A DNA stretch of 20,324 nt from IMG/VR virus record IMGVR_UViG_3300030328_001871, positions 1 to 20,324 of that record; one strand, written 5' to 3'. The notes beneath the pieces were generated by a model that ran no database searches, was not told the DNA's origin, and saw only the letters and a list, made by a program, of their open reading frames with translations. The translations under genes and the position numbers were made by a program. The stretch's first letter is position 1. Every line of letters begins with the position of its first letter. Shown here piece by piece: positions 542 through 14,087 of this stretch. The DNA is from a virus.

Positions 542-556
542 GGCGAAAGCCAGGAG
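542..556 (+). promoter_or_regulatory. GGC-GAAA-GCC mini-hairpin next to the Shine-Dalgarno
   Basis: GGCGAAAGCC at 542-551 can fold into a three-base-pair stem capped by a GNRA-type GAAA loop. It abuts the Shine-Dalgarno AGGAG (552-556), which is 9 nt from the ATG at 566. Such a short stem is only marginally stable, so the structure is tentative. Confidence 0.3.
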
Positions 557-565
557 AACTTAATT

Positions 566-971: not shown

Positions 972-1130
972 ATGAAAGATATATTTGAATATCACAAAAA
1001 GCAAATAAAAAAACAAAATAAAAAATATCCTTTGATGGAGTATTTTTTATCTAACAAACCAATAGAAGAATGTTCTAAAGAATGCCAAGAGCAAGTAAAG
1101 AGCATTAGAAAAAATAAAAGGGAGAACTAA
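972..1130 (+). CDS. Small lysine-rich protein, 52 aa
   Basis: ATG at 972 follows the ribosome site AGGGAGAAC (957-965) at a good distance. The product is strongly basic: the first 19 residues contain eight Lys and the C-terminus is rich in Lys/Arg. It has two Cys (ECSKEC) spaced by three residues near position 34-38, possibly a metal or disulfide pair. No family recognised. Its tail (KREN) is encoded by the ribosome-binding site of the next gene, which begins 3 nt after its stop. Confidence 0.55.
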   Translation: MKDIFEYHKKQIKKQNKKYPLMEYFLSNKPIEECSKECQEQVKSIRKNKREN

Positions 1131-1133
1131 ACA

Positions 1134-2130: not shown

Positions 2131-2140
2131 ACAATCTGTT

Positions 2141-2208
2141 ACCGAAGTTGTATTATTCGGTCATCTATATATCTATAGATGTTAAGTTCTCCAAACTTAA
2201 ATACAACT
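2141..2208 (+). ncRNA. Highly structured RNA element, possible pseudoknot or three-way junction
   Basis: Between the last gene and its terminator almost every base can pair. Elements seen are: ACCGAA (2141-2146) with TTCGGT (2156-2161), loop 2147-2155; an 8-bp hairpin CATCTATA/TATAGATG (2162-2169 with 2174-2181, loop TATC); a 7-bp hairpin TTAAGTT/AACTTAA (2182-2188 with 2194-2200, loop CTCCA); and a long-range pairing of AGTTGTATT (2146-2154, the first hairpin's loop) with AATACAACT (2200-2208). The long-range helix either makes a pseudoknot with the first hairpin or replaces it with a three-way junction enclosing the two inner hairpins. The element abuts an intrinsic terminator, so it is the 3' end of the left operon transcript and might also be released as a small RNA. 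Pairings are seen; function is inferred. Confidence 0.55.
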
Positions 2209-2236
2209 AAAGGGAGCTGAAATGCTCCCTTTTTTT
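2209..2236 (+). terminator. Strong intrinsic terminator
   Basis: AAAGGGAGC (2209-2217) pairs perfectly with GCTCCCTTT (2224-2232) around the loop TGAAAT, and the stem runs into a tract of seven T ending at 2236. This is a textbook Rho-independent terminator for the left rightward operon and sits directly against the structured RNA element. Confidence 0.9.
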
Positions 2237-2280
2237 ATGCCTGGAGTTTAGATCCTGAAACTATTTTATCTACGAGGAGG

Positions 2281-2614: not shown

Positions 2615-2646
2615 TACCTTGTATCACATTAAATAGGAGAACTAAT

Positions 2647-3117
2647 ATGGCACGAAGATTATTAAAACATATACCAAACAATGAACAAGGTAAAAAGTTC
2701 ATATCTGAATTAAGAAATTATGTAGATAGAGATATTGTTAAGGTAGTTAAATGTAGGGGTAGAGGTAAAAGAAAATTTACTTATACAAACAAACAAGGTA
2801 AAAAGATTACTGCTTATCATAAAGACTTAACCAACAAACAAGCAGAAAAATTTGCAGTTTATTTTGAGTTTGATAATCAAGCAGATTATGAATACAAATA
2901 TTATAGAGCAGATAGCAGACTTAAATCTTTAGAAAAAACATTACAGTTTTTATTTCAAAAAACTGATCTAATAAATATCATTAATCAAATTCAACAAGAC
3001 ATAGATGACATTCGTTTTCTATCACATAAATATAATGATTTAGTAAATTTAAAATCTAGCACTTGGGAAATTAAACAAGGATTAGAAACTTTATTAGAAA
3101 TTAAGGGGGAAAAATGA
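2647..3117 (+). CDS. Basic protein of unknown function, 156 aa
   Basis: First and longest gene of the second small-gene operon, with AGGAGAAC 6-13 nt upstream of the ATG. The first 65 residues are strongly basic, including CRGRGKRKF at about 37-45 and a TNKQGKKIT stretch, which suggests nucleic acid binding. The C-terminal half (about 85-150) is a helical, probably coiled-coil region with many Leu/Ile and Gln. A basic head plus coiled coil fits a small DNA- or RNA-binding dimer, but this is inference and no family is recognised. It overlaps the next gene by ATGA. Confidence 0.7.
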   Translation: MARRLLKHIPNNEQGKKFISELRNYVDRDIVKVVKCRGRGKRKFTYTNKQGKKITAYHKDLTNKQAEKFAVYFEFDNQADYEYKYYRADSRLKSLEKTLQFLFQKTDLINIINQIQQDIDDIRFLSHKYNDLVNLKSSTWEIKQGLETLLEIKGEK

Positions 3118-11258: not shown

Positions 11259-13254
11259 CCCACGGCCTTTTCATTTCATTGTCTGCTAAGTAATACCATG
11301 TGTTCTTGCCTGGAACATTGTGACTCTTGACTCTCTCGCCTAGATACTTTTGCACATAGCTAACTGCATAACGAGCAGCCCTTTCGCCTGATGCTAGTTC
11401 GTTTTCTTTGAGTGCTTGTCTTGCTAATAGTTCTAGTTCTTTTCTTGAGTAGAACTTTTGTTTGCTCATAGCTGATGCCACCACTCTTGCAATCTCTACT
11501 TCATCTGGACTGTCTTGTGCATCTACCACCTTAAAGTATCCTCTTTCAAAATCAAAGTATGCTAAGTGTTGTTCAGGCTCTCTTGCATTACGAGCTTCAT
11601 AGAATAAAGTTATGTTTGGTTTTTTACCTGACAGCTTGACACCTGAATCCATCCAACCTGCAAAGGCACTACCACCTCTAGCTGACATGAACGACAGGTC
11701 ATCTGCTCTTTCTTTTCCTGTGTGATGAGCAATGATGACTGCTACTTTATATAGTTCAATAAGTTTATCTATCCTTGACAGCATCTCATGTATCTCAGAG
11801 TTAGAGTTTTCTTCTCCACTAAAAAAGTTAATGATAGGATCAATCATAACCAAGTCAGGCTTATGATATTCAATACTCTCTGCGATAGCATCTATGTCGC
11901 TGTCCCTCATTAAGTTCTTTCTTAATCTGCCTGATGCTATGAGGTTTGACTTGCCTATGTTGTATAGCTCTGGATCATGATGAAAAGGTTGGTAATACAT
12001 TTCTATTCTTTTCTTTAAGAACTCATGAATGATCTCTGCTTGTAGCCACATAACCTTGAGTGGTCTTGAGAAAGACCTACCCATAAACTCTGTGCCTGTC
12101 GTAGCTGCTGCTGCGAAAGCACCTAACCAATGCGACTTACCTATCTTTGGTTTACCAAGCAATAATACTCTTGACTGTTCAAATACAAAAGCATCTCCCC
12201 AATACTGCTCAATCCTGTCTGAATCCATAGCATCCCAGAAAGGATCATTAAAAGGCCTAAGTCCTAGTGGATCACTGTCAACTGCGTTTTCTTTCTTTGC
12301 TTGCTCAATAGGATCTTCTTGATCCATGATTTCTTTTAAGTCATCTGTTAATTGTATCTGCCACTGACTTGTATTCCATTTTTGAATACCACTCTCATCA
12401 CTAGGATTTCTTTTTAGGTGTCCTGTGCATATACTTTGGGTTGTGTTTAAGACTTCTTGGACACTCATAGGTGGAGTATTAGTTTGATTCCAGTCCAATG
12501 CTTTGATAACAACTTCTCTCATACCCCAACCCTCTAGTATCCATTTGCCTACTAGCCTGGCGAGAGTATCATTACGCATTCCTGTTTGAACACCATCTGT
12601 TGTTAGTGGTGTCTTGCTGTCTGTGTTGATCTTACCTGTGTTGTTATAGTCATAGATAACATTCATGTCTTGACTTGTTAGTGTTGGTAAGTCATCAAGC
12701 GAATCTAATACAGCTCCATCAACTACTTCAAACTTATAATTGAAAGAAGGGCTGACCATAACATAACCACCCTCTCCTCTTATATCTAGTTTACCTGTAG
12801 TGTTTCTAATCTTTAGATCATCATTGATTGCATAGAAATAATGATAGCCACCTCTAGGTGTTTTTTGTTTTAGTATTGTTCTTGTTATTTCTCCTGACTC
12901 ACAAAACTCACAGGCTTCTTGTGTGTCAGCATCAAGCACCACAAATGTTATGCCTGTGATAGCGGCCCAATTACATTCCGGGTATTGTAGATACCATTGC
13001 TTTACTTCATTAAGTGTAGGTTGTTTCTTTGTGTAGTCAGCCCACTTAACTCTTGGTGTTTTTGACCAACGCTTTTGTAAAACAATATCATCTTCAAATG
13101 GATGTCTGCTTTTAAAGTATTCTGGAATAATGTCTGTGGTAGATCCACATGGTATTAAGTGAAAGAAGTTTTCATGATATGAGATGAGCATATCTTTTCG
13201 TTCATCATTTTGAATGTCTTGACCGACAAAATTTGGTTTTATTTCTATTGGCAT
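11248..13254 (-). CDS. Primase-polymerase fused to RecA-fold helicase
   Basis: Replication protein with two domains. The N-terminal prim-pol part carries LDAD (about 107-110, metal-binding), TPRGGYHYFY (132-141) and DIRGEGGYVMVSPS (157-170), the three conserved blocks of bifunctional DNA primase/polymerase domains. The C-terminal RecA-like ATPase has LLLGKPKIGKS (Walker A, about 365-374), DLVMIDP (Walker B, about 467-473) and IAHHTGK (508-514), as in RepA/DnaB-like hexameric helicases. It would prime and unwind DNA at the phage origin. I take the ATG at 13254, which overlaps the HTH gene's stop by 10 nt. A TTG at 13284 gives ten more residues but lacks a placed ribosome site. It is the largest gene and the second of the leftward operon. 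Confidence 0.88.
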   Translation of the reverse strand: MPIEIKPNFVGQDIQNDERKDMLISYHENFFHLIPCGSTTDIIPEYFKSRHPFEDDIVLQKRWSKTPRVKWADYTKKQPTLNEVKQWYLQYPECNWAAITGITFVVLDADTQEACEFCESGEITRTILKQKTPRGGYHYFYAINDDLKIRNTTGKLDIRGEGGYVMVSPSFNYKFEVVDGAVLDSLDDLPTLTSQDMNVIYDYNNTGKINTDSKTPLTTDGVQTGMRNDTLARLVGKWILEGWGMREVVIKALDWNQTNTPPMSVQEVLNTTQSICTGHLKRNPSDESGIQKWNTSQWQIQLTDDLKEIMDQEDPIEQAKKENAVDSDPLGLRPFNDPFWDAMDSDRIEQYWGDAFVFEQSRVLLLGKPKIGKSHWLGAFAAAATTGTEFMGRSFSRPLKVMWLQAEIIHEFLKKRIEMYYQPFHHDPELYNIGKSNLIASGRLRKNLMRDSDIDAIAESIEYHKPDLVMIDPIINFFSGEENSNSEIHEMLSRIDKLIELYKVAVIIAHHTGKERADDLSFMSARGGSAFAGWMDSGVKLSGKKPNITLFYEARNAREPEQHLAYFDFERGYFKVVDAQDSPDEVEIARVVASAMSKQKFYSRKELELLARQALKENELASGERAARYAVSYVQKYLGERVKSHNVPGKNTWYYLADNEMKRPWDED

Positions 13255-13442
13255 TCGTCTACTGATCCATAAATGTTTTCCCAACCTAAAGCATAGCCTG
13301 TCATCTTGATTAATTTTTTAGCTTGATTAACTGAGGGTTGTCTATTGCCATATCTCCAGGACTTAATAGTATCAACTGATACTCCCAAATCTTTTGCTAG
13401 GTTTTCTTCACCTCGTTTTTTTATATAGTCTTTAAGTTCCAT
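13245..13442 (-). CDS. HTH transcriptional regulator, XRE/Cro-like, 65 aa
   Basis: Residues about 12-37 read EENLAKDLGVSVDTIKSWRYGNRQPS, a helix-turn-helix of the Cro/XRE type (A-K-x-L-G-V-S-x-x-T-I-x-x-W...G-x-R-x-P). The protein is short, so it has the DNA-binding domain and little else. AGGAG is 5-6 nt upstream of the ATG. It opens the leftward replication/modification operon and faces the rightward recombination operon across 200 bp, so it probably represses one or both. The spaced inverted repeat at 13460-13532 is a plausible binding site. Confidence 0.8.
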   Translation of the reverse strand: MELKDYIKKRGEENLAKDLGVSVDTIKSWRYGNRQPSVNQAKKLIKMTGYALGWENIYGSVDECQ

Positions 13443-13459
13443 AGTTCTCCTAAATAGAA

Positions 13460-13532
13460 TGGTGTGGGCTTATTAAATACGCTAGGGGGGTAGAGTATTT
13501 TTATATATTAATAGAGGGTTTCACCCACACCA
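13460..13532. promoter_or_regulatory. Spaced inverted repeat TGGTGTGGG/CCCACACCA, candidate operator
   Basis: TGGTGTGGG at 13460-13468 is the exact reverse complement of CCCACACCA at 13524-13532, 64 bp between like positions. Between them lie AAATAC/GTATTT (13475-13480 with 13495-13500), a run of six G and AT-rich DNA that may contain the leftward promoter. This layout fits paired operator half-sites able to form a repression loop for the adjacent HTH protein. The repeat is seen; the operator role is inferred. Confidence 0.5.
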
Positions 13533-13587
13533 AATATGATAATAATTCACTATATACAATAAGTAAAGTTTTTTTTTTACAAAACTA

Positions 13588-13615: not shown

Positions 13616-13643
13616 AAACAGTGTATTTAAAAAGGAGCAACTT

Positions 13644-14087
13644 ATGAAAGATTATTCAAAACTTACTCTGCCACAACTTTTGGTAGAAAAGAAAAAGAAT
13701 CTAGCAAAGCAAACTGAATTAAAAGAACAAAGTTCTTTGCTTGACTTTGCGATTACTGCACATCCTGAGGTGCATGGACAAGTCAATCGACTTTCTAATT
13801 CAGGTGGATCTACTCGGGTTCAACTTAACGGTATCATACCAAAAGACTTACGAGTGCAATATAAAGTTACTAGATCATGGGATCAAAACTTTTTATCACA
13901 AGTAAAACAAGACATACCTGAAAACTTATTTCCTTTTAAAACTAAATATGTTGAGGACTCTGCACTATCTAAAATGATAGAGCAAAACTATCCTGATGTA
14001 TTTGATAAGTTTCAAGAGGGTTTACAAACCAAAATTAACGAAAGGCCTTATGTGTCTTTTGTTGATCCATTAAAGGGGACACAATAA
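13644..14087 (+). CDS. Conserved-looking phage protein ahead of Sak4, 147 aa
   Basis: First gene of the recombination operon. The N-terminal 25 residues form a charged helix (KLTLPQLLVEKKKNLAKQTEL). The second half reads ENLFPFKTKYVEDSALSKMIEQNYPDVFDKFQEGLQTKINERPYV. This 'FPF-K-x-x-(Y/F)-x-x-D' then 'P-x-x-(F/Y)' then 'T-K...P-x-V-x-(F/V)' pattern recalls an unnamed phage family found upstream of RecA-like ATPases. The location suggests a part in recombination or replication, which is inference. The next gene begins at its TAATG end. Confidence 0.65.
   Translation: MKDYSKLTLPQLLVEKKKNLAKQTELKEQSSLLDFAITAHPEVHGQVNRLSNSGGSTRVQLNGIIPKDLRVQYKVTRSWDQNFLSQVKQDIPENLFPFKTKYVEDSALSKMIEQNYPDVFDKFQEGLQTKINERPYVSFVDPLKGTQ

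Follow-up and report, generated by a model that had tools for sequence, protein, structure and literature searches.

A putative small RNA gene of uncultured phages predicted to pair with Shine-Dalgarno sites of the phages' own genes

Introduction

The ant gene is repressed by antisense RNAs, sar in phage P22 and c4 in phages P1 and P7, which pair with it at its translation start or close by; in c4, the complementary sequences are thought to sit in loops (PMC12197685). Two trans-acting phage small RNAs (sRNAs), VpdS of phage VP882 and PreS of phage lambda, are about 50-90 nt long and act via Hfq; VpdS affects both phage and host mRNAs (PMC12197685). In Caulobacter, the SisA-D RNAs of the alphaR8 family repress many mRNAs through an anti-Shine-Dalgarno (anti-SD) 10-mer (PMC12559287).

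Here we analyze a structured element in the IMG/VR virus record IMGVR_UViG_3300030328_001871 (20.3 kb), whose positions 1 to 20,324 constitute the window considered throughout. The gene content of the window is of the phage type and includes a primase/helicase-like gene, a helicase and an HTH regulator. With a probability of roughly two in three, we interpret the element as a gene in its own right for a regulatory RNA some 75 nt in length, which sequence comparison predicts to act as an anti-SD repressor of the phage's own genes.

Like sar and c4, this RNA would be a phage sRNA that blocks translation of phage mRNAs at or near the ribosome-binding site (RBS); whereas sar and c4 have one target, ant, the predicted target here is an RBS sequence common to several separate genes. 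The Rfam covariance model of the C4 antisense RNA was not matched at its gathering score. With SisA-D the candidate shares a short anti-SD motif and a 3' terminator, but SisA-D are chromosomal and present a single-stranded UUUCCUCCCU. This core 10-mer of the alphaR8 (SisA/MmgR) family is absent from the phage-encoded candidate, whose seed is UUAAGUUCUCC and lies within a hairpin. VpdS and PreS, likened here by description, are trans-acting phage-encoded sRNAs of similar size; both are known from experiments, whereas the candidate is predicted from sequence and its predicted targets are the phage's own translation starts.

Results

Distribution of the element among related phages

Scans by neighbouring gene and by DNA patterns located the folded element in eight further IMG/VR contigs (G001-G008), which together with the window form a comparison set of nine. 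One of them (G006) starts within the element, and alignment column counts are based on eight sequences, the window and its closest relative, G001, among them. An additional relative, L063, has the operon leader and stops short of the element. The gene upstream of the element differs between contigs: four of the nine (the window, G001, G002 and G003) share the window's 69-aa gene, G005 and G008 have a homologue of the window's 89-aa gene at this place, and G004 and G007 have a gene beginning 'MEYKSDKERAE...'. Pattern matches in L005, L007, L014, L066 and L067 were discarded as chance, judged by their context. In cultured phages, matches to the element were confined to the terminator and its flank; in species genomes, the exact core pattern was absent; and a MAG contig labelled Bacteroidota contained one distant homologue of a neighbouring gene and no convincing sRNA match.

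The 89-aa protein (gene 1134-1403; SYPIWNxITACIYKxxKSYGVRERGEVEVRIGTS...) has no Pfam match and is strongly conserved across many uncultured phages. Its closest carriers among cultured phages, at 37-43% identity, are pelagiphages, a match that does not identify the host.

A promoter-like region with a two-allele palindrome

A sigma70-like promoter sequence was found at 2128-2156 on the plus strand, with a -35 box TAGACA (2128-2133) that overlaps the stop codon of the upstream gene, a 17-nt spacer and a -10 box TATTAT (2151-2156). It has 10 of 12 consensus matches, a level frequent by chance: a scan of the AT-rich window for such promoters gave 9 hits against 10.4 expected. In contigs with another upstream gene, the corresponding sequence is TTGCAA-17-TATCAT, and similarity across the differing upstream genes extends from the -35 box (TAGACA or TTGCAA) through to the terminator. 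From this conservation despite a changed upstream gene, rather than from the consensus scan, which alone is insufficient, we infer that the element has its own promoter. The layout, TAGACA/TTGCAA-17-TATTAT/TATCAT followed by a compact downstream unit, is that of a putative sigma70-type promoter and a short transcription unit. By sequence and conservation, the parts of an independent unit are present: a promoter, a short non-coding body and an intrinsic terminator.

The -10 box is surrounded by the palindrome ACCGAA-N9-TTCGGT (2141-2161, without strand assignment), which corresponds to the first of three perfect hairpin stems (6, 8 and 7 bp) in the original prediction, all of which we recovered (at 2141-2161, 2162-2181 and 2182-2200). 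The palindrome occurs as two symmetric alleles with no intermediates, ACCGAA/TTCGGT in five of the eight aligned sequences and AGCCAA/TTGGCT in three, and each allele occurs in both upstream-gene contexts. Exact copies with a 9-base gap number one per contig that holds the whole element. Paired changes of this kind would count as RNA covariation, yet they are equally expected of an operator with two specificities; a palindrome in a promoter can thus mimic RNA covariation. Because the predicted RNA start (around 2163) falls beyond the palindrome, it is more likely a DNA operator than an RNA hairpin, and the first hairpin and its loop, originally taken as parts of the RNA, would lie in the promoter, upstream of the transcript.

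The phage's own HTH repressor (13442) is unlikely to be the regulator that binds this palindrome: a second copy was found neither close to the repressor gene nor at any other site, and the sequence of the repressor does not follow the two alleles. In the leader of the repressor gene (about 13450-13540), a distant inverted repeat, GGTGTGGGT...GCCCACACC, reads GGTGTGAGTTAA...TTAACTCACACC in G002 and G006, that is, with paired changes; the repeat could reflect either structure in the leader or a pair of operators.

The predicted small RNA body

The predicted sRNA is about 73-75 nt long (2163-2235, plus strand), starts at A2163, 7 nt past the -10 box, and is found in the window and the eight further IMG/VR contigs. 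It consists, in order, of hairpin A, hairpin B, a short linker and a terminator. Hairpin A (2162-2181, plus strand) has an 8-bp stem, CATCTATA-TATC-TATAGATG, and is invariant in all eight aligned sequences. Hairpin B (2182-2200, plus strand; TTAAGTT-CTCCA-AACTTAA), the seed hairpin, has a 7-bp stem and a CUCCA loop; in the RNA, UUAAGUU-CUCCA-AACUUAA, a single closing base varies (U-A or U-G) and the rest is invariant in the eight sequences. Since both hairpins are almost invariant, they offer no covariation for testing. The intrinsic terminator (2209-2237, plus strand), with a 9-bp stem at 2209-2232 and a T tail, would serve both the sRNA and the upstream operon. Its stem is maintained in relatives, while the loop and some stem letters differ. 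The strong adjoining terminator of the original prediction is present.

The full 110-nt region folds with -31.5 kcal/mol, compared with -15.1 +/- 2.8 kcal/mol for dinucleotide-shuffled sequences (z -5.78; 0 of 200 shuffles as good), in agreement with the originally proposed excess of structure. For the sRNA alone, the fold energy is -22.4 kcal/mol (z -5.27). An Rfam search returned no family at the gathering threshold, the best sub-threshold hit being PsrR1 (18.1 bits against 42 needed), and a search for tRNA or tmRNA found none.

We consider it very improbable that the locus is simply an operon terminator with adjacent AT-rich hairpins that have no separate RNA function. The strong terminator and the restriction of cultured-phage matches to the terminator part would fit such a locus. 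Against it, hairpins A and B, roughly 39 nt together, differ at a single base across the aligned relatives, in contrast to the variable flanks and terminator loop, and the fold without the terminator (z -3.5) still surpasses all 200 shuffles.

Past the sRNA terminator and ahead of the next promoter lie five 21-nt direct repeats (2279-2463; AACGCA-N4-GTCGCAAA-like, with spacings of 28, 26, 28 and 62), and a similar array occurs in L073 and L074. These repeats are possibly replication-origin iterons or a regulator array.

The long-range helix is largely lost in relatives

The 8-9-base complementarity between the first loop and sequence past the third hairpin, the basis of the originally proposed pseudoknot or three-way junction, does exist in the window: the loop GTTGTATT (2147-2154) is complementary to AATACAAC (2200-2207). 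The complete 8-bp helix is found only in the window and G001. In the other six aligned sequences, its outer pairs are broken or gapped, positions being unpaired in 4-5 of the eight sequences, and for six of the eight the predicted fold consists of three separate hairpins and the terminator. The five inner pairs are retained throughout and fall on GTATC in the -10 region; the sole double change, in this inner core, is U-A to C-G, which sets the window and G001 apart from the remaining six sequences and probably reflects a single event. Covariation of the long-range helix in homologues, as called for by the original prediction, thus largely fails, and we rejected the view that the conserved fold is a pseudoknot or three-way junction. 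All the helices described originally as one structured unit are present in the window, but the unit with its full long-range helix is limited to the window and G001.

Some points favour the original model: read-through transcripts of the operon would include both hairpin 1 and the helix, the three-way junction is the lowest-energy fold of the window and G001, and paired double changes occur twice in hairpin 1 and once in the inner core. It is nevertheless quite unlikely that the operon ends in an RNA whose hairpin 1 and loop-to-downstream helix build a pseudoknot, or a three-way junction that switches, beside the terminator, given that the outer pairs are gone in most relatives, six of eight sequences fold without the helix, the loop and core overlap the -10 box and are constrained regardless, and the unit persists without the upstream gene. 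The small RNA suggested originally is supported, as neither a pseudoknot nor mainly a product released from the operon, in view of the promoter-like sequence and the survival of the unit when the upstream gene changes. For an exonuclease-blocking 3' end, no evidence was found.

The seed hairpin is complementary to ribosome-binding sites

The main functional clue, absent from the original prediction, is the complementarity of the third hairpin, hairpin B, to SD sequences of the phage. Hairpin B offers an 11-nt perfect complement of GGAGAACUUAA, the SD region of the gene that opens the left operon: the segment TTAAGTTCTCC (2182-2192; UUAAGUUCUCC in the RNA, the seed) is the exact reverse complement of GGAGAACTTAA (553-563, plus strand), the predicted target ahead of gene 566-754, in a leader conserved in relatives. 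Within the same operon, seed complementarity predicts GGAGAACTAAA as a target at 959-969 and again at 1121-1131 (both plus strand), preceding gene 972-1130 and the 89-aa gene (1134-1403), respectively; homologues of the latter in sRNA-negative phages have different SDs. A further predicted target, GGAGAACTAAT (2636-2646, plus strand), precedes gene 2647-3117, the first of the next operon, whose homologues in the sRNA-less contig ends L075 and L076 have the SD GGGGTAATT/GAGGTAATT. On the minus strand, the HTH repressor gene (13245-13442) has a predicted target, GGAGAACTATG (13440-13450), at its start. A possible, weaker target, GGAGCAACTT (13634-13643, plus strand), precedes gene 13644-14087 and would pair with a one-base bulge (duplex -17.6 kcal/mol). 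A type I toxin-antitoxin system is not favoured, since the RNA is predicted to act on several unrelated genes rather than on a single toxin.

Throughout the nine contigs, GGAGAACT is an RBS just before an ATG, except for the sRNA itself and two intragenic sites in G001, and it stands ahead of many unrelated proteins. Its contexts are non-homologous: a GGCG..AGCC leader, an internal leader past a GGGGGAG..CCCCC hairpin, the promoter leader at 2636, the repressor leader and a G001-specific gene.

Two of these leaders have features of their own. Small first genes that differ among relatives stand behind the conserved promoter and leader at about 520-566 (AATAGGCG..AGCC.GGAGAACTTAAT.ATG), as if the genes in this place had been exchanged. 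At 914-932 and at equivalent sites in G001-G008, a terminator-like hairpin, GGGGGAGCAATCCCC, followed by ATTTTT, stands, in the relatives, just ahead of internal GGAGAACTAAA genes and is perhaps an internal attenuator. Some leaders could compete with the sRNA through their own folding.

The complementarity exceeds chance expectation

Among 3000 shuffled sRNA bodies, an 11-nt match arose in 26, and complementarity of at least 8 nt to eight start regions in 2. When CUCC was fixed and its flank permuted, the observed number of strong duplexes was reached in 7 of 1000 permutations; with CUCC kept, the odds per contig ranged from 0.006 to 0.054. As an sRNA-less control, we used 27 contigs with a relative of the 89-aa gene, most of them fragments. 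GGAGAACT accounts for 25 of 213 GGAG-type starts in sRNA-bearing contigs and for none of 183 in the related sRNA-less phages, and complements of at least 9 nt for 14 of 213 and 0 of 206, respectively, counts that overstate independence because the phages are close relatives that share leaders as modules and the sRNA-negative contigs are mostly fragments. Complementarity to translation starts goes beyond chance, with moderate odds per contig and a strong contrast between the groups. Divergent sRNAs were sought via relatives of four neighbouring genes, and no relative with matched changes in seed and SD was found.

The between-group contrast also bears on the possibility that the same sRNA gene mainly targets host mRNAs or a host sRNA, with the match to phage SDs a by-product of generic SD-like sequence. 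Host-acting phage sRNAs such as PreS and AgvB are known (PMC12197685), and an anti-SD seed is able to hit many mRNAs, as with SisA (PMC12559287). We regard this possibility as unlikely, because GGAGAACT is specific to phages that carry the sRNA and the phage's own leaders provide the longest matches.

Discussion

Our preferred reading is a stand-alone sRNA gene whose predicted product would repress a set of the phage's own early genes. The RNA most likely represents a new phage sRNA family, judged from the comparisons above, of a functional kind already known, and its predicted set of own targets is unusually clear. Because the tip of the seed hairpin matches their ribosome-binding sites, translation of several of the phage's own genes is probably switched off.

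We propose that RNA polymerase would start at the sigma70-type promoter (2128-2156), with the palindrome (2141-2161) allowing a regulator to control it. The CUCC in the loop of hairpin B, as the complementarity suggests, would touch the GGAG of the SD sites; the 5' arm of the hairpin would then open and switch partner, and the duplex would grow to 8-11 bp over GGAGAACTNAA. Ribosome entry would be blocked on several phage transcripts: within the left operon, at its first gene and at internal genes; beyond it, on the following operon, the repressor gene and perhaps the gene divergent from the latter. As the left operon, which ends at the sRNA, is among the predicted targets, the arrangement would provide feedback.

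A broader hypothesis, which we find possible but rather doubtful, is that a group-wide extended SD marks unrelated, exchangeable early genes, and that one sRNA under a two-allele operator silences them all. The self-targeting sRNA, if real, would be a compact, testable case of post-transcriptional self-control of early genes, in an environmental phage group that keeps the leader and its ribosome-binding site even as the first operon gene changes. It would suggest that newly acquired small genes become controlled by landing behind a target-bearing leader.
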